Source: Devosia sp. SD17-2 (GTDB taxonomy: Bacteria; Pseudomonadota; Alphaproteobacteria; Rhizobiales; Devosiaceae). From it: a DNA stretch of 64,000 nt. The stretch lies in NCBI RefSeq assembly GCF_029201565.1, contig NZ_CP104002.1:2311001-2375000 (forward strand). The letters run 5' to 3'. Numbering within the stretch: the first letter of the stretch is position 1; each line of letters begins with the position of its first letter. The position numbers were made by a program, and so were the translations under genes. Positions 5,340-47,475 of this stretch are shown piece by piece. A model generated the notes under the pieces. It was not told the DNA's origin. It searched no databases and saw only the letters and a list, made by a program, of their open reading frames with translations.

Positions 5340-5960
5340 CTAAACGCCGGCCCCTGCCCCGATAACCAGCGGCGCGATTAGGTTGAAAAGCGGCTGCAAC
5401 ACAAACCGGGTGATGCCCAATAGCGAGGCGAGAAGAAGAGCCCCGCCGACCCAAAGGCCGGCCGATGGCGGGAGGCGTATGCCGACAGCATTGAGGAAAT
5501 GTGCACCGGCAAGCGGCGGAAGCGGCAGTAGGGAGAACAGCGCCATCCACACCGCAAACGGGGTTGCGAAACGGAGGAAGGCTGCCGTGGTGAGCCCTGC
5601 CGTATAGGGCAGGACGGTGAGCGCCGGGATGATCAGCAGAGTCAGCAACCAAGCCAACAGCAGCAGGGCGGCGCTGCCGGCCAGAACGGTTGCGACAAGG
5701 GCCAAAGACCCGTGCCGCAACTGGGCCTTGTCGATATCGACCACCTTGCCCCAACCGAAACCGGACAAGACGATGGCGGCAAGCCCAAAAAGATCGACAT
5801 GGGCGGCAGGCGACAGGGTCAGGCGGCCGTCGTAGCGAGGTCCCTTGTCACCCAGCATGACTGCCATGGCGGCAAGCACGGCGCCGTGTATGGTCACGAC
5901 AATCAGTCCCGCCAGCAGGCGGGACACCATGGCCTGGATCGTGAAGTCGGCGTTCATCAC
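5340..5960 (-). CDS. Catalytically dead M50 (site-2 protease)-like membrane protein, locus A
   Basis: The 206-residue protein is mostly hydrophobic with several membrane segments. Residues 42-75 (RYDGRLTLSPAAHVDLFG then FGWGKVVDID) match the conserved GRLTLNP-HIDPxG-GWGKPV stretch of SpoIVFB/S2P-type M50 proteases. The catalytic parts are missing: the HExxH position reads H25-GAV-L29, and the NLLPxPPLDG motif reads SLLPLPPLAG (A151-G152), without the metal-binding aspartate. It should therefore not cleave peptides; a membrane scaffold or assembly role is a guess. It is the last gene of PQQ locus A, and a similar degenerate protein closes locus B. Confidence 0.7.
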   Translation of the reverse strand: MMNADFTIQAMVSRLLAGLIVVTIHGAVLAAMAVMLGDKGPRYDGRLTLSPAAHVDLFGLAAIVLSGFGWGKVVDIDKAQLRHGSLALVATVLAGSAALLLLAWLLTLLIIPALTVLPYTAGLTTAAFLRFATPFAVWMALFSLLPLPPLAGAHFLNAVGIRLPPSAGLWVGGALLLASLLGITRFVLQPLFNLIAPLVIGAGAGV

Positions 5961-6003
5961 GCCGGCTTTGCGATCGCGGGACTATAAAGGGATCGAACGC
6001 GCA

Positions 6004-6519
6004 CTACTCGATGATCATATTGTAGAGCGCGTCACTATCGGTTGGCAGGGCCTGACCGCTGGACGGAAAGCCGTTCCGCTGCAGGATATAGGCCATCATG
6101 TCGGCATAGGCTCCGGGGGAATACCGACCCGGGGCATCCGGCGGCATGGTGCCGCTCATGACGTCATAGAGCACGCCGGCAGGCGCACCATCGCCGAATT
6201 TGCTGAGGAAGTTGACGCCGCGCAGCGGCGGGCCACCCAGGAGGCCGCCGCGCAAATCCTCTCCATGGCATTCCACGCAATCCTTCTGGAATTGCGTTTT
6301 GCCGCGGTCGACCTGATCGGATGTAAAGGAGACAGGGACTTCAGTCGCGGCCTGGGCGAGCAGGATCCGTGTTTCAGATTTGGGAGCGGATACACCAAGC
6401 GTGCCTGCGCCCGGCCGTTCATAGCCGCTGACCATGCCAAGCGTCGCGAAAAGCGCCCCGCTCCCAGCCAGCACGCCAATCACGCTACGCAATAGTCGCC
6501 GTGAACCATCTTTGGTCAT
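6004..6519 (-). CDS. c-type cytochrome, PQQ locus A
   Basis: This 171-residue protein has a hydrophobic N-terminal segment (about 11-30) that could be a signal peptide or membrane anchor. A single heme site CVECH follows (C81, C84, H85), and the probable axial methionine is M125 in SGTMPPDAPG. The fold is a class I monoheme cytochrome. Its place among quinoprotein dehydrogenase genes points to a role as the direct periplasmic electron acceptor of the PQQ enzyme encoded at 10218-11942. A 135-bp gap separates it from the upstream binding-protein gene, enough for a separate promoter. Confidence 0.88.
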   Translation of the reverse strand: MTKDGSRRLLRSVIGVLAGSGALFATLGMVSGYERPGAGTLGVSAPKSETRILLAQAATEVPVSFTSDQVDRGKTQFQKDCVECHGEDLRGGLLGGPPLRGVNFLSKFGDGAPAGVLYDVMSGTMPPDAPGRYSPGAYADMMAYILQRNGFPSSGQALPTDSDALYNMIIE

Positions 6520-6654
6520 GAAATCCTCCTATACGATCAACGAGAACAGCGCTGTCGTCAGTTGAGTATGTGTCTAACGGAACGCACAACGCACGAGTTT
6601 GCAACAGTTCTTTTGGGGCGCCGAAGCAAAGAGCATTTGGCCCGGCGCATAGAT

Positions 6655-7446
6655 CTACTCAATTGAAGTCACATCGTATTTCTCCAGAATTGACGCGATT
6701 TTGCCATTGACGGAAAAGTCAGCGAAGGCGGCAGTGACGGCACGCTTGAGCGTGATATCGCCCTTCCAGAAGCCGAAGACGAGGTGATGGCGAGGCAAGC
6801 CTTCGCCGATCCATCTCACCGCCCAGCCATTTTCCCTGGCCAGCCCCGAGGCCATCATGGCTTCAGTCACTCCAGCATCCACCGAGCCATCGGCGATCGC
6901 TGCGACCAGCGCCTCTGGCGAAGTCATGACGCGCGCGGTGACGCCTTGGGCGCGGAGGTAACTGGCGAGCCCAATGCGGTCGAGGCCCGATACCAAGGCC
7001 AGTGTGCCCACCGTCAGCCCGCTAAGGGACTGCAGGGCTTGCTGCGAGACGAGAGCCCAACCCGTTTCGGCATATTCGGGTCCCGTCTCCAGAAAGGATC
7101 GTGTCTGGGCGGAGTTGACTACCCCGCCCGCCACGATCTGGCATTGCGCGCGGTTGAGGTTCCAGTTCCGTGGGTTGAAGTCGCGGCCCATGGCCTGGTT
7201 CTCGGCGATAATCATCGAGACGCCCATATGATCGGCCACGGCCCGCAGGAGCTCGATATCGACACCGGGGCGTTCCGGGTCGCCCGTGACAAGTGGCGGA
7301 TAGGTGCTAGGGACGCAGGCCCTAAGGGCCCCTACCCGCTCGATCTCGCGCAGCGAAGTGTCGGGCGGCAACAGGCTGACAGCGACCAGCAGCGCGACGA
7401 CCGCTCCAAAACTGATAACATTGCGCAACTTGCCGGGGTCGACCAT
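6655..7446 (-). CDS. Periplasmic binding protein family 3 (PQQ-associated), locus A
   Basis: The 263-residue product has an N-terminal hydrophobic segment (ISFGAVVALLVAVSLLP) and a solute-binding fold of family 3, beginning LRACVPSTYPPLV and containing GVDIELLRAVADHMGV. The stretch DFNPRNWNLNRAQCQIVAGGVV is nearly repeated in the paralog at 35735-36556. Binding proteins of this type accompany quinoprotein dehydrogenases, including MoxJ and XoxJ in methanol oxidation, where they may act in enzyme activation. I chose the ATG at 7446, five bases after the permease stop; the longer frame from 7503 would overlap the permease. Confidence 0.75.
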   Translation of the reverse strand: MVDPGKLRNVISFGAVVALLVAVSLLPPDTSLREIERVGALRACVPSTYPPLVTGDPERPGVDIELLRAVADHMGVSMIIAENQAMGRDFNPRNWNLNRAQCQIVAGGVVNSAQTRSFLETGPEYAETGWALVSQQALQSLSGLTVGTLALVSGLDRIGLASYLRAQGVTARVMTSPEALVAAIADGSVDAGVTEAMMASGLARENGWAVRWIGEGLPRHHLVFGFWKGDITLKRAVTAAFADFSVNGKIASILEKYDVTSIE

Positions 7447-7451
7447 TTCGG

Positions 7452-8291
7452 TCAGGCCCGCCGAAAATCGAGCAGAGCAATGGTGAAGAACACAACGGAG
7501 CACACCAGCATGACCGTGACCCCTGTCCAGACGCCGAATTGACTGTAGTTGATGAGCACGCTGCGCAGAGAGTCTACGGCGTAGGTCAGTGGATTGTATT
7601 GAACGATGGTAACGAGCCAGTCTGGATAGACGACGCGCGTCTGTGCCTGGCTGAGCGCCGGATCCAGCGGGAAAATCGAGCTCGAGGTGAAATAGAGCGG
7701 CAGGATGACGGCATTGGAGAAGATGCCGAAACCCTCAAAGCTGCGAATACGATTGGCGATGACAACCCCTAGCGAGGTCAGCGCGAAAGCCAGCAACGCC
7801 ATGAGGCCGAGCGCCTGCAGCGCCTGCATCGGGGTGAAGGTGACGTCGGCAAAGCGCGCGAGGATCAGAACCAGCGCTCCGTGCAGCACCGCGACAGTGG
7901 CGCCGCCCAGCACCTTCCCCAACAGCACCGTGCCGCGGGAGAGCGGCGACACCAGCACCTCGCGCAGATAGCCAAATTCGCGGTCCCAGATAACCGAGAC
8001 TGCCGATTGCACGGAGGTAAACATGATGTTGAGCGCGATGACGCCGGGGAAGATAAACTGCAGGTAGGTGAAAGGCACGACGAAGGTGACGCTGCCATAG
8101 ACTTCGCCGCGGAAGTAGGGATTGAGCCCGATGCCGAGGATGATCACCCACAATATGGGGCGACTGACACCGCCGATCAGCTGGCCCCGGTCGCGAAAGG
8201 CGCGTCGAACCTCGCGTAGCCAGAGGCCATAAAGGCCGCCCAGCTGCACCATAAACGGGTGCGGTCTTCTGATCGTCTCAACTTCATTCAT
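7452..8291 (-). CDS. ABC-2 type transporter permease, PQQ locus A
   Basis: The 279-residue integral membrane protein belongs to the ABC-2 permease family, the exporter class, with about six membrane helices. Landmarks are RDRGQLIGGVSRPILW, IWDREFGYLREVLVSP, the cytoplasmic loop signature of the class, and NPLTYAVDSLRSVL. It matches the PedC-like permeases associated with PQQ-dependent alcohol oxidation. Its start overlaps the ATPase stop by four bases. The permease of locus B is closely similar throughout, so the two arose by duplication. The cargo is unknown. Confidence 0.88.
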   Translation of the reverse strand: MNEVETIRRPHPFMVQLGGLYGLWLREVRRAFRDRGQLIGGVSRPILWVIILGIGLNPYFRGEVYGSVTFVVPFTYLQFIFPGVIALNIMFTSVQSAVSVIWDREFGYLREVLVSPLSRGTVLLGKVLGGATVAVLHGALVLILARFADVTFTPMQALQALGLMALLAFALTSLGVVIANRIRSFEGFGIFSNAVILPLYFTSSSIFPLDPALSQAQTRVVYPDWLVTIVQYNPLTYAVDSLRSVLINYSQFGVWTGVTVMLVCSVVFFTIALLDFRRA

Positions 8292-9295
8292 CGTGTGTGC
8301 TCCCCTCCCCGACGACCAAAGGACAGGGTCTGTTCCCGCGCACCGGCGGCCTGATCGCGGATCGCCCGTCCCGTCAGGGACAGGAACACGGTTTCGAGGC
8401 TGGGTTTTTCAACCTGCATGGCGGTAATGCCGGTGCCGAATTCTCCGAGGAGCGCAGCGACGAAGGCTTCGTCACTGTCGAGCAGCAAGTCTTCCCCCGC
8501 GCCCGGCGAAAGGCGCTCCGCATAGCGCTGGGAAATGGCAGAGCGAACAGCGTCATTGGCGGGGGTGAGGCGAAGGCGGGCGTGGCCATGGCCGGATTTG
8601 AGGCGGCCCGGTGTATCGAGCGCCAGCACCTTGCCGCCGTCGATTATGCAGACACGGTCGCAGCCTTCGACCTCCTCGATGTAATGGGTGGTAACCAGAA
8701 CCGTGATGTTCCGCTGCTGGCGCAGGCGATGGACATAATCCCAGATGCGGTTGCGGGTCTGTGCATCGAGGCCCACTGTCGGCTCATCCAGCATCAGAAT
8801 TTCGGAATCGTGGATCAGGGCTCTGGCAATCTCGAGGCGTCGCTTCATGCCAGAAGACAGGGTCCGCGCGACCTTGTCGGCCCATTGCGTCAACTCGACC
8901 AGCGCCAGCATTTCCTCGATGCGCTGGCGGCGCAAGCGGCGGGGTACGCCGAAGACCAGGCCATGGAGTTCAAGATTTTCCCGCACGGTGAGGCGGTCGT
9001 CGAGGCTCGGCTCCTGAAAAACAATGCCCAACCTTTGGCGGGCTTCCAGCGGATTTCGTACCACATCGACGCCGCCGATCCGTGCCGTGCCGCTGTCCGG
9101 GCGCAGAATGGTCGACAGGATATGCAGCAGCGTTGTCTTGCCCGCACCATTGGGCCCGAGAAGCGCAAACACCTCCTGCCTCTGGACGCTGAAGCTTACC
9201 TCATCGAGCGCGAGAACGCGGCCGTATCGCCTCGAGATCGCCTCGACCTCGATGGCCGGGACAACCGCCAAGGCAGCATCACTCGCGGTGCTCAT
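8288..9295 (-). CDS. ABC transporter ATP-binding protein, PQQ locus A
   Basis: The 335-residue ATPase has Walker A GPNGAGKTT (about residue 48), the signature LSSGMKRRLEIAR in place of the usual LSGGQ, Walker B EILMLDEPT and the switch histidine in TTHYIEE. A C-terminal domain of about 100 residues follows (ending EKPSLETVFLSLTGRA), typical of ABC-2 drug or lipid exporters. It pairs with the permease at 7452-8291. It overlaps the upstream binding-protein gene and the downstream permease by four bases each, indicating one translationally coupled unit. Confidence 0.9.
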   Translation of the reverse strand: MSTASDAALAVVPAIEVEAISRRYGRVLALDEVSFSVQRQEVFALLGPNGAGKTTLLHILSTILRPDSGTARIGGVDVVRNPLEARQRLGIVFQEPSLDDRLTVRENLELHGLVFGVPRRLRRQRIEEMLALVELTQWADKVARTLSSGMKRRLEIARALIHDSEILMLDEPTVGLDAQTRNRIWDYVHRLRQQRNITVLVTTHYIEEVEGCDRVCIIDGGKVLALDTPGRLKSGHGHARLRLTPANDAVRSAISQRYAERLSPGAGEDLLLDSDEAFVAALLGEFGTGITAMQVEKPSLETVFLSLTGRAIRDQAAGAREQTLSFGRRGGEHTR

Positions 9296-10140
9296 GGTAC
9301 GGCCCGGGCGGGAAAATCGTAGCTATCGATGATCTGCTGGAAGGTGCCGTCGGCGCTCAGGGCGGCAATGGCTTCGTCGATGGCATTCCGCAAAAACTTC
9401 TGATCGGACAGGACGATAGCGCCGACGCCAAGACGTGTCGGCGCGAGAGGCGTCGGCTCGATCGCATGCAATCCGGCATAGGCGGCGTCGGCGCGCTGCC
9501 TGGCCCAGAGGTTTGGCGCCCAGACAAGGGCCAGGTCCACGGACCCATTGAGCACGGACTCGAGCGCGGCGTCATTGGTGCTGGAGGGGAAGGCGCGCCA
9601 TCTCTGATCGGCCGGCAGAGCCCTGATGTAGGAGACCAGCAGGATGTGAGCCGAGGTGCCGATGGTGGCGCTGATCGTACTTCCCGCCGGGAGTTCGGCC
9701 AGCGAGCGCAAATCAGGATCGGCGGTGACAAAGACATAGTCGCTTTCGTAATAGGCCCGGGTAATGGCCAGCCAGTCGGCGTAGCCCTCGGGGATCAGCT
9801 TGAAACCGAGATAGAGGTCGCATTGCTCCAACATGAGCGCATAGACCTTGGTGATGTCTTCCTGAACGAACTGGCTTTCGACGACGTAGCGCTCCGGCTC
9901 CAGCAATAGGGCGGCGGCGATGGCGTCGGCGATCGTTTCGCCGATTTCCCAGTCGGCGTCCCGTGGATCGACGCAATATCGCAATTTGGATTCGTCGAAG
10001 CGCCGACCGATTTCCCACTGGCGATCGGCATAGGGAGTGTCGTTGAATTCTGGTTCCTGCGCAGGTGAAGCACCGCAAGCCAGCAGAGTCAGCGCAATGG
10101 CGCCAACGATCTGGCCGAAAGACGTGGATTTAGTCCGCAC
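9292..10140 (-). CDS. Second periplasmic binding protein, PQQ locus A
   Basis: The 282-residue exported protein begins with a signal peptide (GAIALTLLACGASPAQ); LLAC could be a lipobox, so it may be a lipoprotein. The mature part is a periplasmic binding fold like the quinoprotein-associated MoxJ/XoxJ-type proteins: LRYCVDPRDADWEIGE at the start, EQCDLYLGFKLI in the middle and LSADGTFQQIIDSYDF at the end. It lies 77 bases after the PQQ dehydrogenase, as in locus B where the counterpart also directly follows the dehydrogenase. A role in maturation of, or electron transfer from, the dehydrogenase is plausible but unproven. Confidence 0.75.
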   Translation of the reverse strand: MRTKSTSFGQIVGAIALTLLACGASPAQEPEFNDTPYADRQWEIGRRFDESKLRYCVDPRDADWEIGETIADAIAAALLLEPERYVVESQFVQEDITKVYALMLEQCDLYLGFKLIPEGYADWLAITRAYYESDYVFVTADPDLRSLAELPAGSTISATIGTSAHILLVSYIRALPADQRWRAFPSSTNDAALESVLNGSVDLALVWAPNLWARQRADAAYAGLHAIEPTPLAPTRLGVGAIVLSDQKFLRNAIDEAIAALSADGTFQQIIDSYDFPARAVP

Positions 10141-10217
10141 ACTACAACCTCAATAGGCACCCGGACGCGACCGGTATGGTCCAGTGCGTCCGGGCAATTC
10201 GACAAGGCGCCAGGCGC

Positions 10218-11942
10218 TTACTTAGCGTCGGGCAGTGCGAAGACGTAGAGCGAGACCGGATTGTTCGGCGGCAGTTTGACGTCCGGCGTCAGCGACTGCA
10301 GGCGACCAAGGCCGTTACCCCAGTTTGCAACCACGGCGATGTACTGCTTGCCGTTGGCTTCGTAGCTGATGGGGAAGGATTCAAGCGCGTTGCTCAGCTT
10401 GCCGCTCTCCCAAAGCACTTCGCCAGTTTCATCGTCGAATGCGAGGAGCTTACGGTCCAGCGTGCCGACGAAGACCAGACCGCCACCTGTTGGCAGGGTC
10501 GAGGTGGTGACCGGCGCATACTGGCGGTATTCCCACATGTCAGACTGGTCATCGAGCTTAACAGCACGGACCTGGCCAATATTGCCGTCGCTGTCTGGAT
10601 GCGGGACGCGGGAGAAAGTCTGCAGACCACCGCTGGTGTAGATCTGGCCCGGATCGAGCGGATTGACCGTCGTGTTGGAGCAGAACTCGACCATCGGCAG
10701 ATAGATGGCGCCGGTGCGCGGGCTATAGGAGGTCGCCTGCCAGGCGCGTGCGCCCGGGTCGGCCGGGCAGTTGAAGGTGGTTTCCCCAATGACTGGAATG
10801 ACTTCCGGATTGATTTCCTTCTCGCCTGTTTCCTGATCGATCGACAGAACGACGTTCTGGGGAACGGTCTCCTTTGCCCACAGCCACTTGCCGTCGGTGC
10901 GGTTGATCGCTTCGATGATGCCGAGCTTGCCGGTGGTGACGATCATGTCGTCAAAGATCATCCGCTCATAGACATAGTCCAGATCGAGCGAGTCCGTGGC
11001 CAGATACTGGTGGTACCACTTCAGCTCGCCGCTGTTAGGATCAATGGCGAGGGTCGAGTTGGTGTAGAGCGCCTCATTGGTGACATTGGGGTCGTCACTT
11101 GGCGGCACCAGCCCTGCAATTTCGGTGTTCCAGGGATAGACCTGACCGACGCCGGCAAACACCAGGTTCTGCTCAGGATCATACGAGCCGGAGATCCACG
11201 CGGACGCGCCATAGCGGTTCTCGAGCGGCACGCCGTTCCAGCTGTTCCCCTCAGGGGTATCGCCGCGGGCAATCGTATGCACGCGCCAAAGCTCTTCGCC
11301 GGTTTCCGTATCATGACCGGTGAAATAGCATCCGCCCGGTTGGGCATTGGAGCAGTTGGTCATGCCCTGGATGATGACGCCATTGGCGACGATCGGGCCA
11401 CTGGAATAGGCAAAACCCTTGCGGTGGTCAGCAACCTGCTGGTCCCAGACCAGACGGCCGGTCTTGATATCAAGAGCGATGATATGGGCGTCACGCGTCG
11501 CAACGATGAGCGTGTCACCATAGATGGCCTTCGACCGCTCGCCACCGGGGTTCACGCCTGTGGGCAACTCGTGCTGGTATTCCCAGATCAGGTCACCCGT
11601 CGCAGCATCAAGGGCCTGGATGCGGTGATCGGCATTCTGCAGGAACAGGACGCCATCATGCACCAATGGGGTTTCCTGGGTTCGGCCCGGGCTCATGCCC
11701 CATGACCAAACCAGCTCAAGCTCCCCCACGTTCTCCTTATTGATCTGATCGAGCGGGCTGTAGCCCCAACCGTCATAGGTCCGGCGCCACATCAGCCAGT
11801 CGCCGTCGGGCGGATTGGTCAGCATTTCGTCCGTAACGGTCGTGATGCTGTCGATGGGGTTTTCCTGGGCGACGGATGCCTGGAGCATCAATGCCGAGGC
11901 CGCGACCGTAACAAGGGCCGCCATCTTCAAGTTACTCTTCAC
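10218..11942 (-). CDS. PQQ-dependent alcohol dehydrogenase, locus A
   Basis: The 574-residue periplasmic quinoprotein starts with a signal peptide (LVTVAASALMLQASVAQ) and folds as an eight-bladed propeller, seen in repeated blade-end motifs such as LDAATGDLIWEYQ, HDTETGEELWR and FDDETGEVLWESG. It oxidises an alcohol and passes electrons to a cytochrome c. The catalytic-base region reads SLDLDYVYER: D320 is the likely catalytic Asp and D322 the additional Asp characteristic of lanthanide-dependent enzymes. The usual metal-ligand Asn is Q267 (GVGQ), and no vicinal Cys-Cys pair is present. The start is GTG, with a strong AGGAGGAGGT seven bases upstream. The substrate is unknown; deoxynivalenol-oxidising quinoproteins of Devosia are relatives worth comparing. 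Confidence 0.9.
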   Translation of the reverse strand: MKSNLKMAALVTVAASALMLQASVAQENPIDSITTVTDEMLTNPPDGDWLMWRRTYDGWGYSPLDQINKENVGELELVWSWGMSPGRTQETPLVHDGVLFLQNADHRIQALDAATGDLIWEYQHELPTGVNPGGERSKAIYGDTLIVATRDAHIIALDIKTGRLVWDQQVADHRKGFAYSSGPIVANGVIIQGMTNCSNAQPGGCYFTGHDTETGEELWRVHTIARGDTPEGNSWNGVPLENRYGASAWISGSYDPEQNLVFAGVGQVYPWNTEIAGLVPPSDDPNVTNEALYTNSTLAIDPNSGELKWYHQYLATDSLDLDYVYERMIFDDMIVTTGKLGIIEAINRTDGKWLWAKETVPQNVVLSIDQETGEKEINPEVIPVIGETTFNCPADPGARAWQATSYSPRTGAIYLPMVEFCSNTTVNPLDPGQIYTSGGLQTFSRVPHPDSDGNIGQVRAVKLDDQSDMWEYRQYAPVTTSTLPTGGGLVFVGTLDRKLLAFDDETGEVLWESGKLSNALESFPISYEANGKQYIAVVANWGNGLGRLQSLTPDVKLPPNNPVSLYVFALPDAK

Positions 11943-13817: not shown

Positions 13818-14561
13818 CTCGGCCGTCGGGTCGAGCGGTATATTGCGCTCCCACAGGAAGGCGACGATCCGGTCGCGATCCGCTTTGGCGGACACGTTGA
13901 GAAGATCCGGGCGCGACTTGAAAATTCCACGTTGGAACGTTGATCCCAACCGGTTCTCAGCAAGAGGATCAGCCCCCAGTTGCAGGAAGCGCAGGGTGTT
14001 GTGAAAGTCATTGATCGCGGCAGCAACGTGCAGCGGGGTCTCGCCATTGCGATCGGCGAAGGCAAGACTGGCGCCGTGCTCGAGCAGAAAGTCGATGTTG
14101 TCCTGCCGATTGCTCATAAGTGCCGAGAAGAGCGGCGTGCGCTCCATCTTGCCATCGACGACGTCGACAGGAACACCTTTGGCAATCAGGGCCTTGAGGT
14201 AGATTGGGTTACTATACATGGCTGCGATGTGCATGGCCGTTTCGCCGCCCCAGCCGATAGCGGTCGGATCAGCGCCGAGGCGGAGGAGCTCTCTGAAGCC
14301 CGTATGCCCCTCTCGCAGGATTTCCCATTCAAGGAGCGTCATCCCATCCCTGCCAGTCCCATTCGGATCGGCACCTTCGGACACCAGACGATCCATCTCC
14401 TCGACATCGCCCTCCATCATGGCATTGGCCAGAGCGATCGACTGAGGGTCGGAGAACGTGTCCTCTGCGACCAGTTTTCGGCCATTCATTCCGAACATCG
14501 CAAAGATCATCAGGGCTGCAATCGCGAGCCCAGCAAAGAGACCAAGCCGCTTCAGTGTCAC
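13812..14561 (-). CDS. Membrane-anchored ankyrin-repeat protein
   Basis: The 249-residue protein has one N-terminal hydrophobic helix (about 7-26, LFAGLAIAALMIFAMFGM), followed by about five ankyrin-like repeats: SIALANAMMEGDVEEMDRLVSEGADPN, then TAMHIAAMYSNPIYLKALIAKGVPVD, RTPLFSALMSNRQDNIDFLLEHGAS and TPLHVAAAINDFHNTLRFLQLGADP. Ankyrin repeats bind proteins; small anchored versions often act as inhibitors or immunity-like partners. The gene start overlaps the upstream gene by four bases, so the partner may be one of the two upstream products. Function is unknown. Confidence 0.8.
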   Translation of the reverse strand: MTLKRLGLFAGLAIAALMIFAMFGMNGRKLVAEDTFSDPQSIALANAMMEGDVEEMDRLVSEGADPNGTGRDGMTLLEWEILREGHTGFRELLRLGADPTAIGWGGETAMHIAAMYSNPIYLKALIAKGVPVDVVDGKMERTPLFSALMSNRQDNIDFLLEHGASLAFADRNGETPLHVAAAINDFHNTLRFLQLGADPLAENRLGSTFQRGIFKSRPDLLNVSAKADRDRIVAFLWERNIPLDPTAER

Positions 14562-15019
14562 TCTTCCACCCTCTCGGCCGCGTAGCGCTGGAGGTAGTCG
14601 GCAAAGCGTGTGTCGTGGAGATGGCCATCCAGGCGGTAGGGAGGCTCATGGGAGAAAACGAATGAGAACTCGCCGCTCGCATTGATGACCAGGTCGACCA
14701 CGCTCCAATATGCGCCGTCACGAGCTTTCATCATCGTGGCCAGCTGTTGAAACAGGCTGTGACTGTTCTCCGAAAGCCGGAACGAGCTTTTTCGCAGCGA
14801 GCCGTCAGTCCCTTCGACCACACCAAAACTGATGACGCTAGTTTCCGTTTCGCTGCCGTCCCACCGCGCTTCGAGGTTGATGACAATTCGTTTCCATTGC
14901 ACGCCACAGTCGCTGGAATCGCGCGGGAATTTTGCGAGATCGGAGATGGCTGATCTGACGATCGCTTCTTGTAGTGCGGCGATGTCTGACAAGCCGCCGC
15001 TGTTGCTACCGGTCGCCAT
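14558..15019 (-). CDS. Small cytosolic protein of unknown function
   Basis: This 153-residue soluble protein has no signal peptide or membrane helix. The C-terminal half (DLVINASGEFSFVFSHEPPYRLDG then FADYLQRYAAERVEE) resembles the end of YezG/DUF600-type immunity proteins, a weak similarity judged by eye only. It lies between a secreted-protein gene and an ankyrin gene, abutting the former and overlapping the latter by four bases. The three are thus one operon and may act together. Confidence 0.6.
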   Translation of the reverse strand: MATGSNSGGLSDIAALQEAIVRSAISDLAKFPRDSSDCGVQWKRIVINLEARWDGSETETSVISFGVVEGTDGSLRKSSFRLSENSHSLFQQLATMMKARDGAYWSVVDLVINASGEFSFVFSHEPPYRLDGHLHDTRFADYLQRYAAERVEE

Positions 15020-18715: not shown

Positions 18716-18722
18716 AGCCTCT

Positions 18723-18752
18723 GCCGGCGTGCCCAAGGGCGCGCCGGCTTTT
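18723..18752 (+). terminator. Intra-operon hairpin after the binding-protein gene
   Basis: GCCGGCGTGCCC (18723-18734) and GGGCGCGCCGGC (18737-18748) pair over almost 12 bp with one G-U wobble, followed by TTTTC. It lies eight bases after the stop. Partial termination or 3'-end protection here is the usual way to raise binding-protein levels. Confidence 0.65.
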
Positions 18753-18784
18753 CCTGCAGAACGCACTAGTGCCACGGGGCAAGC

Positions 18785-33798: not shown

Positions 33799-33954
33799 TC
33801 TTGTCAGCACCGTGGGAGACTGAGGCGAAGAATGGTTTGCCCAAAGCATCGCGGCGTTTTGGCGTACCCACTATCGGAGACTGGCAAACGAGGCGTTCGG
33901 CTGATAGCAGCCTTGTGACGTGTATCCTGAAGCTGCAGCGTGGGAATTGGATCA

Positions 33955-34929
33955 ATGGATAGTCTTGAGCGATCTGGGATCATGCTCGCGGGCATCACCC
34001 ACGCCTATTCAGGGCGCAAGGCGCTAGACGATGTGTCACTTACGCTTCCGCTTGGACAGAGCATGGCGCTGCTTGGGCCAAACGGCGCTGGCAAGTCGAC
34101 ACTGCTCAATATCCTTTGCGGCCTAGTCAAACCGACCGCGGGCACCGCATTCCTCGCCGGTGTCGATATCAGAAAGCACTCGGACCTGGCGCGACGTCAG
34201 ATGGGCGTTGTGTTTCAGGACGACAGTCTTGATGACCGCCTGAGTGCCTGGGAAAATCTGGAATTTCACGGGCTCGTCTATGGCATGGACAGGCCCAGTC
34301 GAGTCCGGCGGATCGACGAGGTGCTGGAGCTTGTGGAGCTCACGGATTGGGCCGAAAACCCTGTTCGCACCTTCTCTGGTGGTATGAAGCGGCGGCTCGA
34401 AATCGCCCGCGCGCTGATGCATGAGCCAAAAATTCTGATCCTCGACGAACCCACCGTCGGCCTTGATGCGCAGACCCGCGCAAAGATCTGGTCCTATCTC
34501 AACCAGCAGCGACGAGACCGGGGACTGACCGTCTTCGTCACCACGCATTATATCGAGGAGGCGGAAAGCTGCGATCTGATATGCGTCATCGACCGTGGAC
34601 GCATCCAGGCGATCGACACGCCAGCTGAGCTCAAGAGCCAGTTTGCCAAGGGGCTCATCCGTTGCCTGCCGCGCGACGCGGAAACGCGGCGGCGCCTGCT
34701 TGAGAAGTGGCCCGAGGCCCAAATGCTTGCGGATGATCGGCTGGGCATCACCATCGAGAGCAAAGCCATGCTCGACGAACTGCTCATCGAATTCGGCACC
34801 TCCCTCAAAGAGATACAAATCGACGAGCCCAGCCTCGAAACGGTGTTCCTTGCGATTACTGGCCGCGAAATGCGCGAACGCGAAGAAGTAAACCCTAAGG
34901 GCCGGGCGAAACGGAACAAGCGGATATGA
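33955..34929 (+). CDS. ABC transporter ATP-binding protein, PQQ locus B
   Basis: The 324-residue ATPase is the counterpart of the one in locus A: Walker A GPNGAGKST, FQDDSLDDRLSAWENLEFHGLVYG, signature FSGGMKRRLEIARALM, Walker B ILILDEPTVGLDAQTR and TTHYIEEAESCD. The C-terminal domain ends DEPSLETVFLAITGREMRERE. The ATG at 33955 is preferred to an in-frame GTG at 33940. It overlaps the permease gene by four bases and starts locus B. Confidence 0.9.
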   Translation: MDSLERSGIMLAGITHAYSGRKALDDVSLTLPLGQSMALLGPNGAGKSTLLNILCGLVKPTAGTAFLAGVDIRKHSDLARRQMGVVFQDDSLDDRLSAWENLEFHGLVYGMDRPSRVRRIDEVLELVELTDWAENPVRTFSGGMKRRLEIARALMHEPKILILDEPTVGLDAQTRAKIWSYLNQQRRDRGLTVFVTTHYIEEAESCDLICVIDRGRIQAIDTPAELKSQFAKGLIRCLPRDAETRRRLLEKWPEAQMLADDRLGITIESKAMLDELLIEFGTSLKEIQIDEPSLETVFLAITGREMREREEVNPKGRAKRNKRI

Positions 34930-35738
34930 CCAATTTCTCCATTCTCCGCCGCGGTATCTACGCCATCTGGCTACGCGAAATCATGCGGTCTTTCCGTGAC
35001 CGCGGGCAGCTGATCGGCGGTGTCTCCCGTCCCATAATCTGGCTTCTCATCCTCGGCATCGGGCTAAATCCCTATTTCCGCGGAGAGGCCTATGGTGAGG
35101 TAAGGTTCGTAATCCCCTTCACCTATCTGCAGTTCCTGTTCCCGGCGGTGATCGTCCTCAACATCATGTACACCTCGATCCTCTTCGCGGTGTCGATGAT
35201 CTGGGACCGGGAGTTCGGCTTCCTGCGCGAGGTGCTGGTATCCCCCCTTCCCCGCTGGGCCATTCTGCTCGGCAAGATCCTGGGGGGCAGCACCGTGGCC
35301 ACGATGCATGGCTTCCTGGTCCTCATCCTGGCGCGGTTCGCCGACGTGACACTGGGATGGGATCAGGCCGCCATAGCCTTGGGGCTCATGTTCCTGCTGT
35401 CCTTCGGGCTCACATCCTTCGGGGTGATCCTTGCAGCGCGCGTGCGCAGTTTCGAGGGTTTTGGTGTCTTCTCGAACACCATTATCCTCCCGCTCTATTT
35501 CTGCTCCTCGTCGGTCTTTCCGCTCGATCCGTCGCTGACGCGCACGCAAATGGCCGCCACCTATCCGGAATGGCTGGTGTTGCTGGTGCAGATCAACCCG
35601 ATCACCTATGCGGTCGATGCGCTGCGCGGAGTATTGATCAACTACAACCAGTTCGACCCCCTCCTCGGGCCCGGCATCATTGCGGCCGGCGCGGTGCTGT
35701 TCTTCACCATCGCCCTCGTGGATTTCAAAAGACAATGA
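34926..35738 (+). CDS. ABC-2 type transporter permease, PQQ locus B
   Basis: The 270-residue ABC-2 permease is a close relative of the locus A permease, sharing RDRGQLIGGVSRPI, LGIGLNPYFRGE, IWDREFGFLREVLVSPL and TYAVDALRGVLINYNQF. About six membrane helices are expected. Association of this exporter-class permease with PQQ alcohol oxidation is known from Pseudomonas ped-type loci; the cargo is not established. Its stop overlaps the start of the following binding-protein gene (ATGA). Confidence 0.9.
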   Translation: MTNFSILRRGIYAIWLREIMRSFRDRGQLIGGVSRPIIWLLILGIGLNPYFRGEAYGEVRFVIPFTYLQFLFPAVIVLNIMYTSILFAVSMIWDREFGFLREVLVSPLPRWAILLGKILGGSTVATMHGFLVLILARFADVTLGWDQAAIALGLMFLLSFGLTSFGVILAARVRSFEGFGVFSNTIILPLYFCSSSVFPLDPSLTRTQMAATYPEWLVLLVQINPITYAVDALRGVLINYNQFDPLLGPGIIAAGAVLFFTIALVDFKRQ

Positions 35739-36556
35739 GTTCCCGTCCGGTCCGACCCAGGAGGCGATGGAAGACGGTGGGTCTGAACCTGCTCGGCGCC
35801 AGCGCCGTGCTCTTTGCGCTGACCTTCCTGCCGCCCGACAATTCTCTGGCCGAGGTAGAGAAATCGGGGGTGCTGCGCGTCTGCGTCCCGCCGTCGATGC
35901 CGCCACTGGTGACCAATGACTCTGCGATGCCGGGCTTTGATATCGAGCTTTTGGGGCTGATCGCGGAAGAGCTCGGCGTCCGTCTTGTGGTCAACCACAA
36001 CGCTGCGATCGGCGCAGACTTCAATCCCCGAAACTGGGGCATCACGCGGGCACAATGCCAGATTATTGCCGGTGGAGTCGTGGCCAACGAATCGACGCGC
36101 GGGTTTCTGGAACTGTTGCCAACGGGGATAAAGACCGGTTGGGCGATGACGGACGCGGCGGACACATTGTCGCATGCAGACACTCGCGCGGCAGTTTTTC
36201 CGGGACCAACCGCGCTCGATAGACTTGCACTAAGCCGCTACCTGCGATCAAAAAAAATTCGAATACTGCCGGCATCTTCAGTTCAGAATCTTGTCGATCT
36301 CTTACAGCGCGGCGAGGCCGATATTCTGATCAGCGATAGACAGACGTTGACGTCACTCAACCTGCCAAGCTCAAGTGTTCATTGGGTTTCCGAGGCTGAT
36401 CTGGGCACCTTTGATTTGTCTATCGGGCTATGGAAGGGCGATGCCACCCTCCTCCGTGCGGTGAAAAAAAGTTCACAAAATCTGCACCAGCTGGGTGTAG
36501 CTGGGCGCTTGGCCACGCGCTATAATGTGCACGTGGACGCAAATCTTCGCCCCTAG
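35735..36556 (+). CDS. Periplasmic binding protein family 3 (PQQ-associated), locus B
   Basis: The 273-residue protein has an arginine-rich N-terminus and one hydrophobic segment (LNLLGASAVLFALTFLPP), then a family 3 binding fold with LRVCVPPSMPPLV, GFDIELLGLIAEELGV and DFNPRNWGITRAQCQIIAGGVV. These features parallel the locus A protein at 6655-7446 in order and wording. The ATG at 35735 overlaps the permease stop. The 3' portion (from about 36180) is less GC-rich than its surroundings. A role with the dehydrogenase rather than in import is suspected. Confidence 0.75.
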   Translation: MSSRPVRPRRRWKTVGLNLLGASAVLFALTFLPPDNSLAEVEKSGVLRVCVPPSMPPLVTNDSAMPGFDIELLGLIAEELGVRLVVNHNAAIGADFNPRNWGITRAQCQIIAGGVVANESTRGFLELLPTGIKTGWAMTDAADTLSHADTRAAVFPGPTALDRLALSRYLRSKKIRILPASSVQNLVDLLQRGEADILISDRQTLTSLNLPSSSVHWVSEADLGTFDLSIGLWKGDATLLRAVKKSSQNLHQLGVAGRLATRYNVHVDANLRP

Positions 36557-36709
36557 CGCTAGCTCCCTTGGAAGAGAATTCCTCCAGGGAAGGTCGGCAT
36601 AGGTATTATTGCTATTCCCGAGCGTCCGATGCAGCTTCACGACCGCATGCTCGATGAGCTGCTGGACGAATAGTTCACGAATGGCGTTTTCAACGTCTTG
36701 GAGGAAATT
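36557..36709 (+). promoter_or_regulatory. Leader region of the cytochrome c/dehydrogenase B pair
   Basis: This 153-bp gap may carry a promoter for the cytochrome and dehydrogenase. An imperfect hairpin can form around 36565-36594. A 14-codon frame (36629-36673, MQLHDRMLDELLDE) is present but has no ribosome site and no recognised homolog; I do not call it a gene. Confidence 0.3.
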
Positions 36710-37222
36710 GTGAGACACAAATCTCCGCGCTTTGCCCTCGGCATGGCGGTCGCCCTGTCAGGCATCCTGATGGCAGCTACCCCCACTCAGGCTCAGGTGT
36801 TCACCCAGGCTCAGGCCGATCAGGGTGAGAAGGACTACGGCGGTCAGTGCGCAATGTGCCACGGCGCCGAACTGCTGGGCCCAGATGCTCCGGCGCTTGT
36901 CGGCACTGAAGTTATGCATAACTTCAGCACCGGTGCAGGCCTTTATGACTACATCTCGGTAGCAATGCCCCCGCAGGCCCCCGGCCTGCTGGACGAGGAA
37001 GTTTATGTGAACATCCTCGCCTACATCCTTGAGGCCAACGGTGCTCAGGCTGGCGATACCGCGCTCGACGCCGATCCGGTCAAGCTCGCCGCCATCGATC
37101 TGGCCGCAGTTACGGCCGTTGCTCCTGGCGCAGCAACCGATGCTCCGGCTGTAGATGCGGCTCCGGCCGTTGTCGTTCCTCAGGCTTACACCTGGGGCAA
37201 GACCCTGCCGTCGATCAAATAA
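36710..37222 (+). CDS. c-type cytochrome, PQQ locus B
   Basis: The 170-residue protein has a signal peptide (FALGMAVALSGILMAATPTQAQ), heme motif CAMCH (C47, C50, H51) and probable axial M86 in VAMPPQAPG. After the cytochrome domain comes an Ala/Pro/Val/Asp-rich linker (about 125-158) and a terminal YTWGKTLPSIK. The tail could be a flexible arm for docking to the dehydrogenase encoded 62 bases downstream. The GTG at 36710, behind GGAGGA, is preferred to the upstream TTG. Confidence 0.88.
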   Translation: MRHKSPRFALGMAVALSGILMAATPTQAQVFTQAQADQGEKDYGGQCAMCHGAELLGPDAPALVGTEVMHNFSTGAGLYDYISVAMPPQAPGLLDEEVYVNILAYILEANGAQAGDTALDADPVKLAAIDLAAVTAVAPGAATDAPAVDAAPAVVVPQAYTWGKTLPSIK

Positions 37223-37284
37223 GTTGAGAATTGCTTTGGACTGCCTCAGCCAATCGGCCTCGGCAGCTAAAGTGGAGGTTTAAG

Positions 37285-39045
37285 ATGACAAAGACCTATC
37301 TGAAGGCCGCTCTCGCACTCGCCGTCAGCATGACGACGCTGGTGAGCGTCGCTCAGGCACAGGGCGTCCGCGAAAACTACGCACCCGTGACCGATGACAT
37401 GGTGCTGAACCCACCGGCCGAGGAATGGCTGAGCTGGCGCCGCACCATCGACAACCAGGCTTTCAGCCCGCTCGACAGCATCAACCGCGACACCGTGGGC
37501 GATCTGGAGCTGGCATGGGCCTGGCCGATGGCAGACGTCGGTATCCAGGAAACCGCACCGCTGATGCACGACGGCGTGTTGTTCCTTCAGACCAACAACA
37601 ACATCGTTCAGGCGATGGATGCCAAGACCGGCGATCTGATCTGGGAATACCGCCCGGCTCTGGCCAAGGTTCCTGCTGAGTGGGGCTACCAGCTCTACCA
37701 GTCCCGCCGCCAGAAGAACTCGATCGCGCTCTATGAAGACACCGTGGTCCTGACCACTGTCGACGCGCGCATCATCGTGCTCGGCGCCAAGGACGGCAAG
37801 GTGATCCGCGAAGTCCAGGCGTTCGACGTCAACAAGGGCTACAGCTACACCGTCGGTCCGATCGTTGTGAACGACACGATCATTTCGGCCATCTCCGGCT
37901 GCTCGATCGCCGGCACCGCCGGCGGTTGCTACATTGTAGCACACGACTTCAACACGCTTGAAGAAAAGTGGCGCTTCAACACCATCGATGATCCGAACAA
38001 CCCGGAACAGCAGGCCAGCTGGGGCGATGTCCCGCCGGAAAACCGCTGGGGCGGTACGCCTTGGGCAACCGGTTCCTATGATCCGGAAACCAACACCACC
38101 TTCTGGGGTGTCGGTATGCCTGCACCTTACGCCGAGCTCATCCGTGGTTCGGAAACTGGCGACGTTCTCTACACCAACTCGACCCTGGCAATCGATGCCG
38201 ATACGGGCGAGCTGAAGTGGTACTACCAGCACCTGCCGCGCGATAACTGGGACCTTGATAGCCCGTTCGAACGCGTCCTCGTTGACGTTGAAGAAGGCGG
38301 CGAAACCAAGAACCTGATCGTCTCGGTTCCGGGCAAGAACGGCATCTTCTTCGCTCTCGACCGCAACACGGGTGAATACCTGTGGTCGCAGGAAACCGTT
38401 GTCCAGAACGTCGTCTCCAAGATCGACGAAGACGGTACGGTTCACCTGAACGAAGAACTGATCATGACCGCCCTCGGCGAAGCGCCGATGGTCTGTACCT
38501 CGGTTTCCGGTGGTAAGCTCTGGCAGGCTGGCGCTTACAGCCCGGTGACCCAGCAGTTCTACGTGCCGCTGACCGAAGCTTGCAACACGACCGAAGCCAC
38601 GCAGTCCGAGTTCACCGCTGGTAACGCTACCGGCGCCATGAAGTTCGGCCCGCGCGTCCTTCCCGAAGGCATCACCGAGGCTGGCCTCGTTGACGCCATC
38701 AAGGTCGGCGTTGAGAAGTCCGAAGGCGAAGGCTGGAAGGCTCGTTCGCGCGCTTCGATGACCTCCTCGCTGCTGGCAACCGCCGGTGGTCTGGTGTTCG
38801 GTGGTGACGCTGGTCGCTACATCAAGGCCTGGGACGACACCACTGGTGAAGTTGTCTGGCAGCAGCGCCTGAACGCCCCGATCGGTGGCTATCCGATGAC
38901 CTACGCGCTTGATGGCGAGCAGTACCTCGTCGTTCCGACCGGCTTCAGCGCCGCAGCCGGTTCGATCGCATCGGCTTTCCCGGAAATCCCGCTTCCGTCG
39001 GGTACGGGCAACTCGATCTTCGTCTTCAAGCTGCCCAAGCAGTAA
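37285..39045 (+). CDS. PQQ-dependent alcohol dehydrogenase, locus B
   Basis: The 586-residue periplasmic quinoprotein has a signal peptide (LALAVSMTTLVSVAQAQ) and eight-bladed propeller motifs (MDAKTGDLIWEYR, IDADTGELKWYYQ, WDDTTGEVVWQQR). The catalytic region NWDLDSPFER has D323 (likely base) and D325, the extra Asp typical of lanthanide-dependent enzymes. The Asn metal ligand of the family is replaced by M278 (GVGMPAP). The usual Glu ligand is not seen where expected (CSIAGTAGGCYI). No vicinal disulfide is present. Codon use (many GGT, GCT, GTT, AAC, GAA) suggests high expression. The start ATG has GGAGG nearby. Confidence 0.9.
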   Translation: MTKTYLKAALALAVSMTTLVSVAQAQGVRENYAPVTDDMVLNPPAEEWLSWRRTIDNQAFSPLDSINRDTVGDLELAWAWPMADVGIQETAPLMHDGVLFLQTNNNIVQAMDAKTGDLIWEYRPALAKVPAEWGYQLYQSRRQKNSIALYEDTVVLTTVDARIIVLGAKDGKVIREVQAFDVNKGYSYTVGPIVVNDTIISAISGCSIAGTAGGCYIVAHDFNTLEEKWRFNTIDDPNNPEQQASWGDVPPENRWGGTPWATGSYDPETNTTFWGVGMPAPYAELIRGSETGDVLYTNSTLAIDADTGELKWYYQHLPRDNWDLDSPFERVLVDVEEGGETKNLIVSVPGKNGIFFALDRNTGEYLWSQETVVQNVVSKIDEDGTVHLNEELIMTALGEAPMVCTSVSGGKLWQAGAYSPVTQQFYVPLTEACNTTEATQSEFTAGNATGAMKFGPRVLPEGITEAGLVDAIKVGVEKSEGEGWKARSRASMTSSLLATAGGLVFGGDAGRYIKAWDDTTGEVVWQQRLNAPIGGYPMTYALDGEQYLVVPTGFSAAAGSIASAFPEIPLPSGTGNSIFVFKLPKQ

Positions 39046-39109: not shown

Positions 39110-39934
39110 ATGTCCCAGATGAAAAAGATTGGCGCCCTGGTTGGCCTGATGATGGTTTCTGCAACGGCGGTGGAGGCACAGGTGCTTCCCCCACAGCTGC
39201 TGAGCCCGGAACGACCATTGCAGGGCAATTCGATCCGCGCCTGCGTCGATGACTACAGCGCCGGCGGCAAGCTCGACCGCGCGGTGGTTCAGGCGATTGC
39301 CGATGCATTGTTTCTGGACGTCGTATTTGTAGAGGCGCTGCGCGGCTTCCCGCTTGATGGCGACGGCTATCTCGCTGAGCTGCAGGTGCAACTCAACAAT
39401 GACTGCGACCTCTTCATGGGCATTGTGGTGCAGCCGAATATGCCCTTCCCGGACTGGGCAACCGTGACCCGCCCCTATGCCGAAATTCCCTTCGTGCTGG
39501 TCACGGACAAGGACTATCAGTCCCTCGCCGACATCCCCTATGGGAGCACTATCGGCACCGCGCTGGCCAGCCTGGGCGAACGTGTCTTTGCCACCAGCGT
39601 CGCACAGCGCCCGGAAGACCAGCGCTGGAAGCGCCTGCCCTATGCAGACTTTGCGCTGATGACGACGCGCATGCGCGAGGGCAAGCTGGCAGCGATGCTG
39701 CTGTGGCAGCCGTCTCTGCAGCAGCTTGCGGAAACCGACCCCAGTGTCGAGCAATTGCGGATCATCGCGACAGACCCTGTGCCGACTGCCAGTGTCCCGA
39801 TTGGTGCGCTCGTATCGACGCGCAACACATTTTTGCGCACCCAGGTGGACCAAGCCATCTCCGAACTATCGGCCGACGGCACGCTCGACGCCATTCTCTC
39901 GGAACTGGGGATCATGGGCGCGGCGGCGCAATAA
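39110..39934 (+). CDS. Second periplasmic binding protein, PQQ locus B
   Basis: The 274-residue exported protein (signal peptide IGALVGLMMVSATAVEA) has a periplasmic binding fold: IRACVDDYSAGGKLDRAVVQAIADAL, NNDCDLFMGIVVQP, and LSADGTLDAILSELGI at the end. It corresponds to the locus A protein at 9292-10140, and in both loci it is the gene after the dehydrogenase. It belongs with MoxJ/XoxJ-type quinoprotein partners rather than with a classic importer. Its stop is adjacent to the stop of the converging membrane-protein gene. Confidence 0.75.
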   Translation: MSQMKKIGALVGLMMVSATAVEAQVLPPQLLSPERPLQGNSIRACVDDYSAGGKLDRAVVQAIADALFLDVVFVEALRGFPLDGDGYLAELQVQLNNDCDLFMGIVVQPNMPFPDWATVTRPYAEIPFVLVTDKDYQSLADIPYGSTIGTALASLGERVFATSVAQRPEDQRWKRLPYADFALMTTRMREGKLAAMLLWQPSLQQLAETDPSVEQLRIIATDPVPTASVPIGALVSTRNTFLRTQVDQAISELSADGTLDAILSELGIMGAAAQ

Positions 39935-39944
39935 TCAGTTGCGC
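39926..39944. terminator. Palindrome at abutting converging stops, locus B
   Basis: GCGCAA (39926-39931) pairs with TTGCGC (39939-39944); the 7-base loop holds the stop codons of both converging genes (39932-39934 and 39935-39937). No T tract is present. Confidence 0.4.
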
Positions 39945-40543
39945 ATCAGCCACGGGGCCAGAATAGCGCCGAAATCCGGCCACCAGCCCAGAACCAGCAC
40001 GATGATCAGTACGGCATAGACCGCCGGCACCGCTCTTTTGAACTGGCGTCGTCTCTCCGGCCAGGCTGCCAGCAAAAGCAGCCCGCCGGTGAGGCCGGGC
40101 AAGGGCAAGAGGTTGAGCGGGACCGAAGCCAGGGCGATCTGCTGGGTCGCCTGAATAAGCTGCAAGGCAGCATAACCGAGGGTGCGCGGCAGACCGTCCG
40201 CGGCGAGCGGTCGTAAAAGGTCGAGCAGCGGCACAATTGCCAGTCCGGCAAGGGCAGTCGCGATCACCATGACCACCAGCCCCCAGGAGCCAGGCCGAAG
40301 CGTTTTCGGATCGAGGTCGCGGTACCGCATCCAGGTCGTCCGGAACAAGATGGCCATCGCGAGCGCAGGCATCGACAGGTGCGTCAGCGGGTTGGCCGAG
40401 AACGAGAATTCATACTCCGCATCGGGCCGCCGCATCAGCTGGGCACAGAGCGTCAGGACGCCGCCGCTGATCGCGACAAAGATCAGCGTTCCGAAAATAC
40501 GCGAAAAAATCGCCTGCAGCGTCAAATCGTTGAGCAAACTCAA
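39935..40543 (-). CDS. Degenerate M50-like membrane protein, locus B
   Basis: The 202-residue hydrophobic protein has the same outline as the locus A protein at 5340-5960: N-terminal helix, FSFSANPLTHLSMPALAM where the GRLTLNP-HID stretch is expected, and PLNLLPLPGLTGGLLL where NLLPxPPLDG is expected. The HExxH site is S26-GGV-L30 and the DG position is T152-G153, so no zinc protease activity is possible. It is more divergent than the A copy. It closes locus B on the opposite strand. Function is unknown. Confidence 0.65.
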   Translation of the reverse strand: MSLLNDLTLQAIFSRIFGTLIFVAISGGVLTLCAQLMRRPDAEYEFSFSANPLTHLSMPALAMAILFRTTWMRYRDLDPKTLRPGSWGLVVMVIATALAGLAIVPLLDLLRPLAADGLPRTLGYAALQLIQATQQIALASVPLNLLPLPGLTGGLLLLAAWPERRRQFKRAVPAVYAVLIIVLVLGWWPDFGAILAPWLMRN

Positions 40544-45842: not shown

Positions 45843-45849
45843 TGTGTTT

Positions 45850-47214: not shown

Positions 47215-47223
47215 ATAGTTCCG

Positions 47224-47475
47224 TCAGTCGTGGTCGGTGTTTTGCTCGGGATCGAACAACTGGATGGGCGCGCCCGGCATGATGGTCGAGATAGCGTGCT
47301 TATAAACCAGTTGCGACTGAGCGTCACGACGCAGAAGCAAGCAGAAGTTATCGAACCAGGTGATCACGCCCTGAAGTTTTACGCCGTTTACGAGGAAAAT
47401 CGTAACCGGGACCTTCTGCTTGCGAACGTGATTGAGAAAGGAGTCCTGCAGGTTTTGCTGCTTTTCACTAGCCAT
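47224..47475 (-). CDS. hfq: RNA chaperone Hfq
   Basis: The 83-residue protein has both Sm motifs: [35 protein letters not shown] and [13 protein letters not shown], with the YKHA signature of Hfq. It forms hexameric rings that pair small RNAs with messages. The ATG at 47475 fits the family start ([11 protein letters not shown]); the longer frame is not used. The C-terminal tail is short, as usual in this class. It lies in the ntrX-hfq-hflX order conserved in rhizobia, 182 bases after ntrX. Confidence 0.97.

Follow-up and report, generated by a model that had tools for sequence, protein, structure and literature searches.

What does a membrane protein of the M50 protease family do beside a quinoprotein dehydrogenase once its catalytic residues are gone? 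The question is raised by a stretch of 64,000 nucleotides from the genome of Devosia sp. SD17-2 (contig NZ_CP104002.1, positions 2,311,001 to 2,375,000; hereafter, the window), which carries two versions, loci A and B, of a seven-gene module. Each locus encodes a pyrroloquinoline quinone (PQQ) dehydrogenase, a monoheme cytochrome c, two binding proteins (SBP1 and SBP2), the ATPase and the permease of an ABC-2 type ATP-binding cassette (ABC) transporter, and an M50-like membrane protein. The module was found to consist of two arms. One comprises the enzyme and the weakly XoxJ-like SBP2, with cytochrome c as a frequent third member; the other comprises the ABC transporter, the anchored SBP1 and the M50-like protein, a predicted pseudo-protease. 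That this dead protease is a subunit of the transporter is the best supported new claim of the analysis, and we consider it probable, by a modest measure.

All fourteen open reading frames (ORFs) of the two loci are present in the window. The features are as follows.

Locus A
10218..11942, minus strand: PQQ dehydrogenase of L-sorbose-dehydrogenase type (PF01011, E 4.5e-50; best PDB relatives 4cvb, 9m2c and 4mh1), with LDLD, that is D-x-D, at the metal site by alignment
9292..10140, minus strand: SBP2, putative XoxJ/MxaJ/PedG-like periplasmic protein (TIGR03871, E 2e-9, below cut-off; SBP2 profile against XoxJ 6onp, E 1.6e-7)
8288..9295, minus strand: ABC ATPase (PF00005, E 6e-36; Walker A GPNGAGKTT, Walker B LMLDEP; drrA 304 bits and TIGR03864 234 bits, both below cut-off)
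7452..8291, minus strand: ABC-2 permease (PF01061, E 1e-23; drrB 173 bits and PedC model 128 bits, both below cut-off)
6655..7446, minus strand: SBP1 with an N-terminal membrane segment and juxtamembrane LPPDTSL found in a motif survey (PF00497, E 3e-8; the start is our choice, the listed frame starting with GTG at 7503)
6004..6519, minus strand: monoheme cytochrome c, CVECH (PF00034, E 1.5e-7)
5340..5960, minus strand: predicted pseudo-site-2-protease, M50 fold by model and structural matches, with HExxH and D-G lost

Locus B
33940..34929, plus strand: ABC ATPase, 49% identical to that of locus A
34926..35738, plus strand: ABC-2 permease, 69% identical
35735..36556, plus strand: SBP1 with an N-terminal membrane segment and LPPDNSL seen in the sequence, 40% identical
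36698..37222, plus strand: monoheme cytochrome c, CAMCH (PF13442, E 4e-8), 38% identical
37231..39045, plus strand: PQQ dehydrogenase of sorbose-dehydrogenase type, WDLD (best PDB relatives 9m2c, 4cvb and 7wmd), 41% identical
39110..39934, plus strand: SBP2, 30% identical (E 1e-30)
39935..40543, minus strand: predicted pseudo-site-2-protease, convergent with SBP2 (PF02163, E 0.0028, below cut-off), 33% identical (E 3e-11)

Locus A has all seven genes on one strand, and the three junctions from SBP2 to SBP1 overlap or are a few bases long; locus B contains the same seven families in another order. The blastp E-values of the seven pairs, 1e-136 to 3e-11, are far beyond chance, which bears out the initial annotation of a seven-gene set present twice. 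Since the pairs are only 30–69% identical, the loci appear from their sequences to be old paralogues and not a recent duplication. The M50-like gene of the window is 99% identical to one in the metagenome-assembled genome (MAG) Devosia sp. N26CT.

The M50-like protein is a predicted pseudo-protease

The HExxH motif is kept in none of 151 M50-like sequences, and the catalytic Glu is replaced by Gly in 96 of 98 non-redundant ones; the protein had been rightly called degenerate. The GD, GR, NP, W and P motifs of the M50 family are kept across the 98 non-redundant sequences. A predicted structure was obtained (predicted local distance difference test score, pLDDT, 86.5), and its six best structural matches are all site-2 proteases. 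We conclude that the M50-like protein is, by this model, a site-2 protease fold without catalytic residues. It would thus share with RseP, SpoIVFB and MjS2P the fold and the structural motifs, and it differs from them by the loss of HExxH and of the catalytic Glu. Rhomboid pseudoproteases (iRhoms) are described, in the part of the source available to us, as likewise keeping an intramembrane protease fold without catalysis (PMC3149277), but their family is unrelated to M50 and their role is eukaryotic.

A pseudogene hitchhiking with its neighbours was considered and rejected, because the motifs are conserved and the gene is retained away from the module in four genomes. Alternatively, the M50-like protein might itself still act in catalysis or electron transfer, for instance at a new metal or haem site. 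His54 is kept in 82/98 sequences and His154 in 109/121 of one subgroup; however, His54 is kept in ordinary M50 proteins too (47/48), His154 is absent from 30/30 members of the other subgroup, and no histidine pair is kept throughout, which leaves this idea highly improbable.

Twenty ORFs lacking HExxH were found without a PQQ dehydrogenase, and they split 5/5/5/5 by origin: genomes outside Alphaproteobacteria (L051, L063, L065, L067, L077), short contigs or a contig end (L006, L156, L161, L182, L184), loci with ABC genes (L020, L059, L142, L174, L181) and genes standing alone (L133, L134, L137, L144, L180). In L133 the lone copy stands among genes of sugar-binding, carbohydrate-kinase, GMC oxidoreductase and biotin-carboxylase type, and no link of these to PQQ is known.

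The initial annotation took a constant pseudo-protease partner of PQQ dehydrogenases to be undescribed. No description was found in the literature searched, which was mostly without subscription papers, and a word search of the available portions of PMC12997753 and PMC11996626 returned no mention of M50.

The M50-like gene accompanies one kind of PQQ dehydrogenase

Co-occurrence was assessed in 136 genomes of Devosiaceae, the family of the source genome, with genes counted as near when the starts of their matches lay within 15 kb. There are 82 M50-like genes in 48/136 genomes, leaving aside weak matches (E ~1e-4, mostly proteins near 390 residues) taken as RseP-like. The module permease (73 genes, weaker matches of 145–186 bits excluded) and sorbose-type dehydrogenases scoring above 480 bits (at least 98, a lower bound since at most 9 candidates per genome were scored) each occur in 47 genomes, all of which have an M50-like gene. 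The one M50-like genome without the permease is G118, and the one without such a dehydrogenase is G061, whose own match scores 381 bits.

A sorbose-type dehydrogenase is near 71/82 M50-like genes. M50-like and ABC genes lying mostly away from PQQ dehydrogenases had been named in advance as the outcome that would speak against the module; the opposite arrangement was thus found. The permease is near 65/82 M50-like genes, and 65 of the 73 permeases have an M50-like gene near. Seen from the enzyme, 74/98 sorbose-type dehydrogenases are near an M50-like gene and 67/98 near the module permease. Among the matches listed, an M50-like gene is near none of 46 PQQ dehydrogenases below 300 bits and none of six between 300 and 480 bits. 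The module is patchily distributed within the genus of the window, and the counts are uncorrected for genome kinship.

All seven families are present in 65 of 92 non-redundant loci having an M50-like gene together with a PQQ dehydrogenase or permease; most of these loci were fetched through the M50-like gene, whose share there is by selection. The parts do, then, recur together. That the M50-like protein belongs to the module is well supported.

The module is divisible into two arms

The initial annotation further held that the seven parts work as a unit. We examined 19 dehydrogenase loci with no M50-like gene or permease within 15 kb, as stretches of about 12 kb (one only 4 kb); they derive from 24 dehydrogenases without a nearby M50-like gene, four of which have the permease near and one of which, on a short contig, was left out. 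SBP2 is present in 19/19 of these loci, cytochrome c in 15/19 and SBP1 in 0/19.

Partial correlations were computed from distance matrices for 64 non-redundant loci; as distances are not independent, the bootstrap over loci is a guide only. For the M50-like protein they are 0.36 with SBP1, 0.22 with SBP2, 0.17 with the permease, 0.13 with the ATPase, 0.06 with cytochrome c and −0.04 with the dehydrogenase. Elsewhere in the module, SBP2 is correlated with the dehydrogenase (0.72), and the ATPase with SBP1 (0.50) and with the permease (0.32). The copy number of the M50-like gene tracks that of the permease (r 0.88) better than that of the dehydrogenase (r 0.70). Thus, the seven genes recur together but are not one indivisible unit, because the enzyme arm occurs alone and the correlations of the M50-like protein follow SBP1, SBP2 and the transporter, not the dehydrogenase. 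A dead protease that follows the transporter from genome to genome suggests a working part of a machine serving the enzyme; which protein within the module is its partner is a moderately supported assignment.

SBP1 and SBP2 are different proteins

Both binding proteins had been annotated as MoxJ/XoxJ-like. Only SBP2 bears such a resemblance, and a weak one: its profile matches XoxJ (6onp, E 1.6e-7) and MxaJ (9ism, E 2.8e-4), amino-acid-binding proteins match as well or better, the TIGR03871 score of the locus A protein (P0002) is far below cut-off, and the locus B protein (P0013) matches no MoxJ model. SBP2 may therefore be called a relative of XoxJ/MxaJ by weak resemblance. PedG, XoxJ and MxaJ are thought, according to the part of PMC12997753 available to us, to help cofactor insertion.

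For SBP1, no support for a MoxJ-like identity was found. Neither MoxJ nor XoxJ is found among its listed matches (the best 60 of 83) or in other family-model scans, and SBP1 appears by sequence to be a relative of amino-acid-binding proteins, distinct from SBP2. A membrane segment followed by LPPD is present in 61/71 non-redundant SBP1 sequences.

Two binding proteins in one cluster, with an extra NMT1-type importer in some loci, could mean that the module moves the substrate or product of the dehydrogenase, or an unrelated compound, its tie to the enzyme being metabolic. If the transporter carried the substrate, its sequence should drift along with that of the enzyme; the 69% identity of the permeases of loci A and B against 41% for the dehydrogenases thus counts against this reading, as does the apparent anchoring of SBP1. 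The ABC-2 type is, moreover, unusual for uptake. We regard metabolic transport as distinctly doubtful.

The transporter is not the PedBC type

The ABC genes had also been likened to the ped-type genes of Pseudomonas, and here the initial annotation was not borne out. The models closest to the module permease and ATPase are drrB and drrA, both below cut-off. Against the PedC model TIGR03861 (cut-off 241.35) the permeases of locus A (P0004) and locus B (P0009) score 128 and 116 bits, and module permeases across the family score 105–129 bits (54 for one fragment at a contig end). The locus A ATPase (P0003) reaches 234 bits against TIGR03864, whose cut-off is 302.25. True PedC, scoring 324–379 bits, is found in 29 genomes of the same family. 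At least 19 of the 29 have a different PQQ dehydrogenase within 15 kb, and neither M50-like genes nor module permeases are near any of the 29. We conclude that the family has two separate quinoprotein–ABC systems and that the pseudo-protease belongs to one of them. At the level of genomes, a weak association of PedC with the M50-like gene is seen (both present in 15 genomes; Fisher p 0.05).

The module resembles the Pseudomonas putida ped cluster (PedE/PedH, PedF, PedG, PedA1A2BC; PMC12997753) in that a PQQ alcohol dehydrogenase and its cytochrome c are encoded together with an ABC transporter plus binding protein and with a further binding protein, which in the module is putatively PedG/XoxJ-like. 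It differs by its sorbose-dehydrogenase-type enzymes, by ABC proteins scoring below the PedC and TIGR03864 cut-offs and by the pseudo-protease, of which the portions of the ped literature consulted make no mention.

Metal site of the dehydrogenases

The nearest solved relatives of both dehydrogenases are 4cvb, 9m2c, 4mh1 and 7wmd (E 5e-90 or better); other quinoprotein alcohol dehydrogenases follow at E 1e-63 for locus A and 5e-61 for locus B. By this comparison, the module enzymes are of the sorbose-dehydrogenase type and not of the methanol or ethanol kind. About 560 residues of the locus B enzyme are aligned with the L-sorbose dehydrogenase-type enzymes (4cvb, 4mh1, 7wmd). The metal site of 4cvb has D-S-E, in contrast to D-x-D in both enzymes of the window.

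PedA1A2BC is reported to import lanthanides and to be required, when lanthanum is low, for growth that depends on PedH (PMC6839425). As proposed for P. putida, the ABC arm might bring a lanthanide or some other metal into the cytoplasm, where it would be sensed or would feed cofactor supply, with the pseudo-protease as an uptake accessory. D-x-D, taken as lanthanide-binding, is found in 78/92 module dehydrogenases, and lanthanide-dependent sorbose dehydrogenases have been predicted from the ocean (PMC11996626, seen in part). However, D-x-E is found in 14/92 module enzymes, and D-x-D in 31/36 dehydrogenases whose locus lacks both permease and M50-like gene; the motif thus does not track the module. 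The ABC proteins are not PedBC by curated models. No PedA2-type beta-propeller was found among the annotated recurrent families (clusters 12–14 and 17–22 being unannotated), where a Kelch protein, present in 8/96 loci, is the one beta-propeller other than the dehydrogenase. Metal import is thus unlikely. The type of metal was itself rejected as a sufficient reason for the module, both D-x-E and D-x-D enzymes having it.

The module beyond the family

All seven genes are present on plasmid pAMI5 of Paracoccus aminophilus JCM 7686, where the M50-like protein and SBP1 are annotated as hypothetical and an NMT1-type importer, so assigned by annotation and analogy, lies between ATPase and permease. 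Among the best 80 of 405 relatives in a scan of named genomes, module genes were seen in Devosia, Pelagibacterium, Arsenicitalea, Propylenella, Bauldia, several Rhodobacterales and Beijerinckiaceae MAGs. A class-wide survey of 385 genomes from 277 genera, drawn evenly and with at most 8, 6 and 3 candidates scored per genome, found the module permease at E 1e-70 only in the source genome and sorbose-type dehydrogenases at E 1e-120 in nine others; M50 matches outside were at E 1e-15 to 1e-20, with HExxH status unchecked.

A distant cousin of the module is present in another phylum, on plasmid pDAETH-2 of Deinococcus aetherius (L188, 5715–11553). It consists of a Rieske 2Fe-2S protein, a PQQ dehydrogenase, SBP2, the ATPase, a permease (54–55% identical) and an SBP1 with LPPDNSL. 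Cytochrome c is absent from its annotated neighbours.

Proposed role of the pseudo-protease

From the direct results on the parts, the lost catalytic residues, the predicted fold, the co-occurrence and the two-arm pattern, we infer contacts and a cargo as follows. The sorbose-dehydrogenase-type enzyme would oxidise an alcohol or sugar in the periplasm and pass electrons to the monoheme cytochrome c, while SBP2, judging by family and linkage, would be its own XoxJ/MxaJ-like helper. The envelope arm would be made of the ABC-2 permease and ATPase, the membrane-anchored SBP1 and the dead site-2 protease, which may keep its intramembrane fold for gripping a client transmembrane helix with no cutting. 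Most likely this helix would be the SBP1 anchor, held beside the transporter, a suggestion that we make tentatively. The envelope arm would spend ATP to supply or insert PQQ and/or a metal ion into the dehydrogenases; this is the weakest step, and we place cofactor loading as the job of the arm somewhat below an even chance. One envelope arm may serve several enzyme arms per cell.

Several observations weigh against this proposal. Eleven of the 82 M50-like genes have no sorbose-type dehydrogenase within 15 kb. Four related genomes have the M50-like gene outside the module (in two of the four, solely on a separate contig of a draft), but they count as one relocation event, since all share one position. 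The correlation of the M50-like protein with SBP2 is no weaker than that with the permease, which blurs the line between the arms, and the gap between the two copy-number correlations is borderline (bootstrap P 0.04). In 20 of the 61 LPPD-bearing SBP1 proteins a loose signal-peptidase-like pattern lies near the anchor, which makes retention of the anchor uncertain. The main result against an obligate role is that pDAETH-2 has no M50-like gene (the plasmid was searched, not the chromosome); the ABC–SBP1 pair can therefore probably work without one.

Another possibility is that PQQ synthesised in the cytoplasm leaves through the ABC arm to reach the periplasmic enzyme. Most ABC-2 permeases are exporters, and the M50-like gene of one genome (G030) has pqqC at a distance of about 4 kb. 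However, pqqC, the only pqq gene searched, has no match in the source genome and is found in only 18/48 module genomes, so most of these (30/48 lacking a match) probably do not produce PQQ for export. We judge PQQ export very unlikely.

For the two-arm model, in which the pseudo-protease has a structural place in an ABC machine that would mature or provide the cofactor of the quinoprotein, the chances seem to us evenly balanced. The fullest version is possible at best: a dead site-2 protease family would have become a built-in part of an ABC machine that is new in kind and separate from PedABC; the machine would load PQQ and/or metal into sorbose-dehydrogenase-type quinoproteins, with the anchor of its binding protein held as an uncut substrate.

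The delivery of PQQ and metal to periplasmic quinoproteins, and the role of the adjoining ABC transporters, are unsettled even in Pseudomonas. A second quinoprotein–ABC system with a constant dead-protease partner offers a clean genetic test in soil bacteria, and it adds a bacterial case of an intramembrane protease fold kept for an apparently non-cutting role.

Other architectures and neighbouring genes

The source genome (4.23 Mb, a single contig) has a third, differently composed copy of the module at 3.62–3.64 Mb, with two tandem PQQ dehydrogenases (3624.7–3628.4 kb), an M50-like gene (3629.4 kb) and a permease (3641.1 kb). It also holds SBP2, a MoxR ATPase, a DUF58-cluster protein, a BatA/VWA-cluster protein of 1393 residues and an ABC pair; cytochrome c was not detected in the stretch examined (L113), which ends before the permease. 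The MoxR, DUF58 and BatA/VWA proteins may correspond to the maturation genes of the mxa operon (MxaR/MoxR, MxaS/DUF58, VWA proteins); loci A and B were not found to have them. Genes for MoxR, DUF58 and a BatA/VWA protein of about 1390 residues join the module in L113 and its relatives (19–26 of 96 loci) and look like a dedicated chaperone set.

In many loci (L019, L122, L157, L187 and others) the ATPase and the permease of the module are separated by an NMT1/SsuA-type ABC importer, whose permease cluster is present in 40/96 loci and whose binding-protein cluster is present in 25/96. The pqqC gene of G030 is on contig 1, at 434–439 kb, beside a module of locus A type.

Elsewhere in the window, ORFs of 153–552 residues have no Pfam match at E 0.001 (14558–16138 and 17642–18802, minus strand; 45844–47502, plus strand), and some may be spurious antisense frames. 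At 28591–29854, a sigma-70-family factor is followed by a protein with a weak zf-HC2 match just below cut-off, perhaps a sigma/anti-sigma pair. A Ku protein gene (41011–41838) lies beside a UvrD-type helicase gene (42755–44818); these are possible end-joining repair genes.

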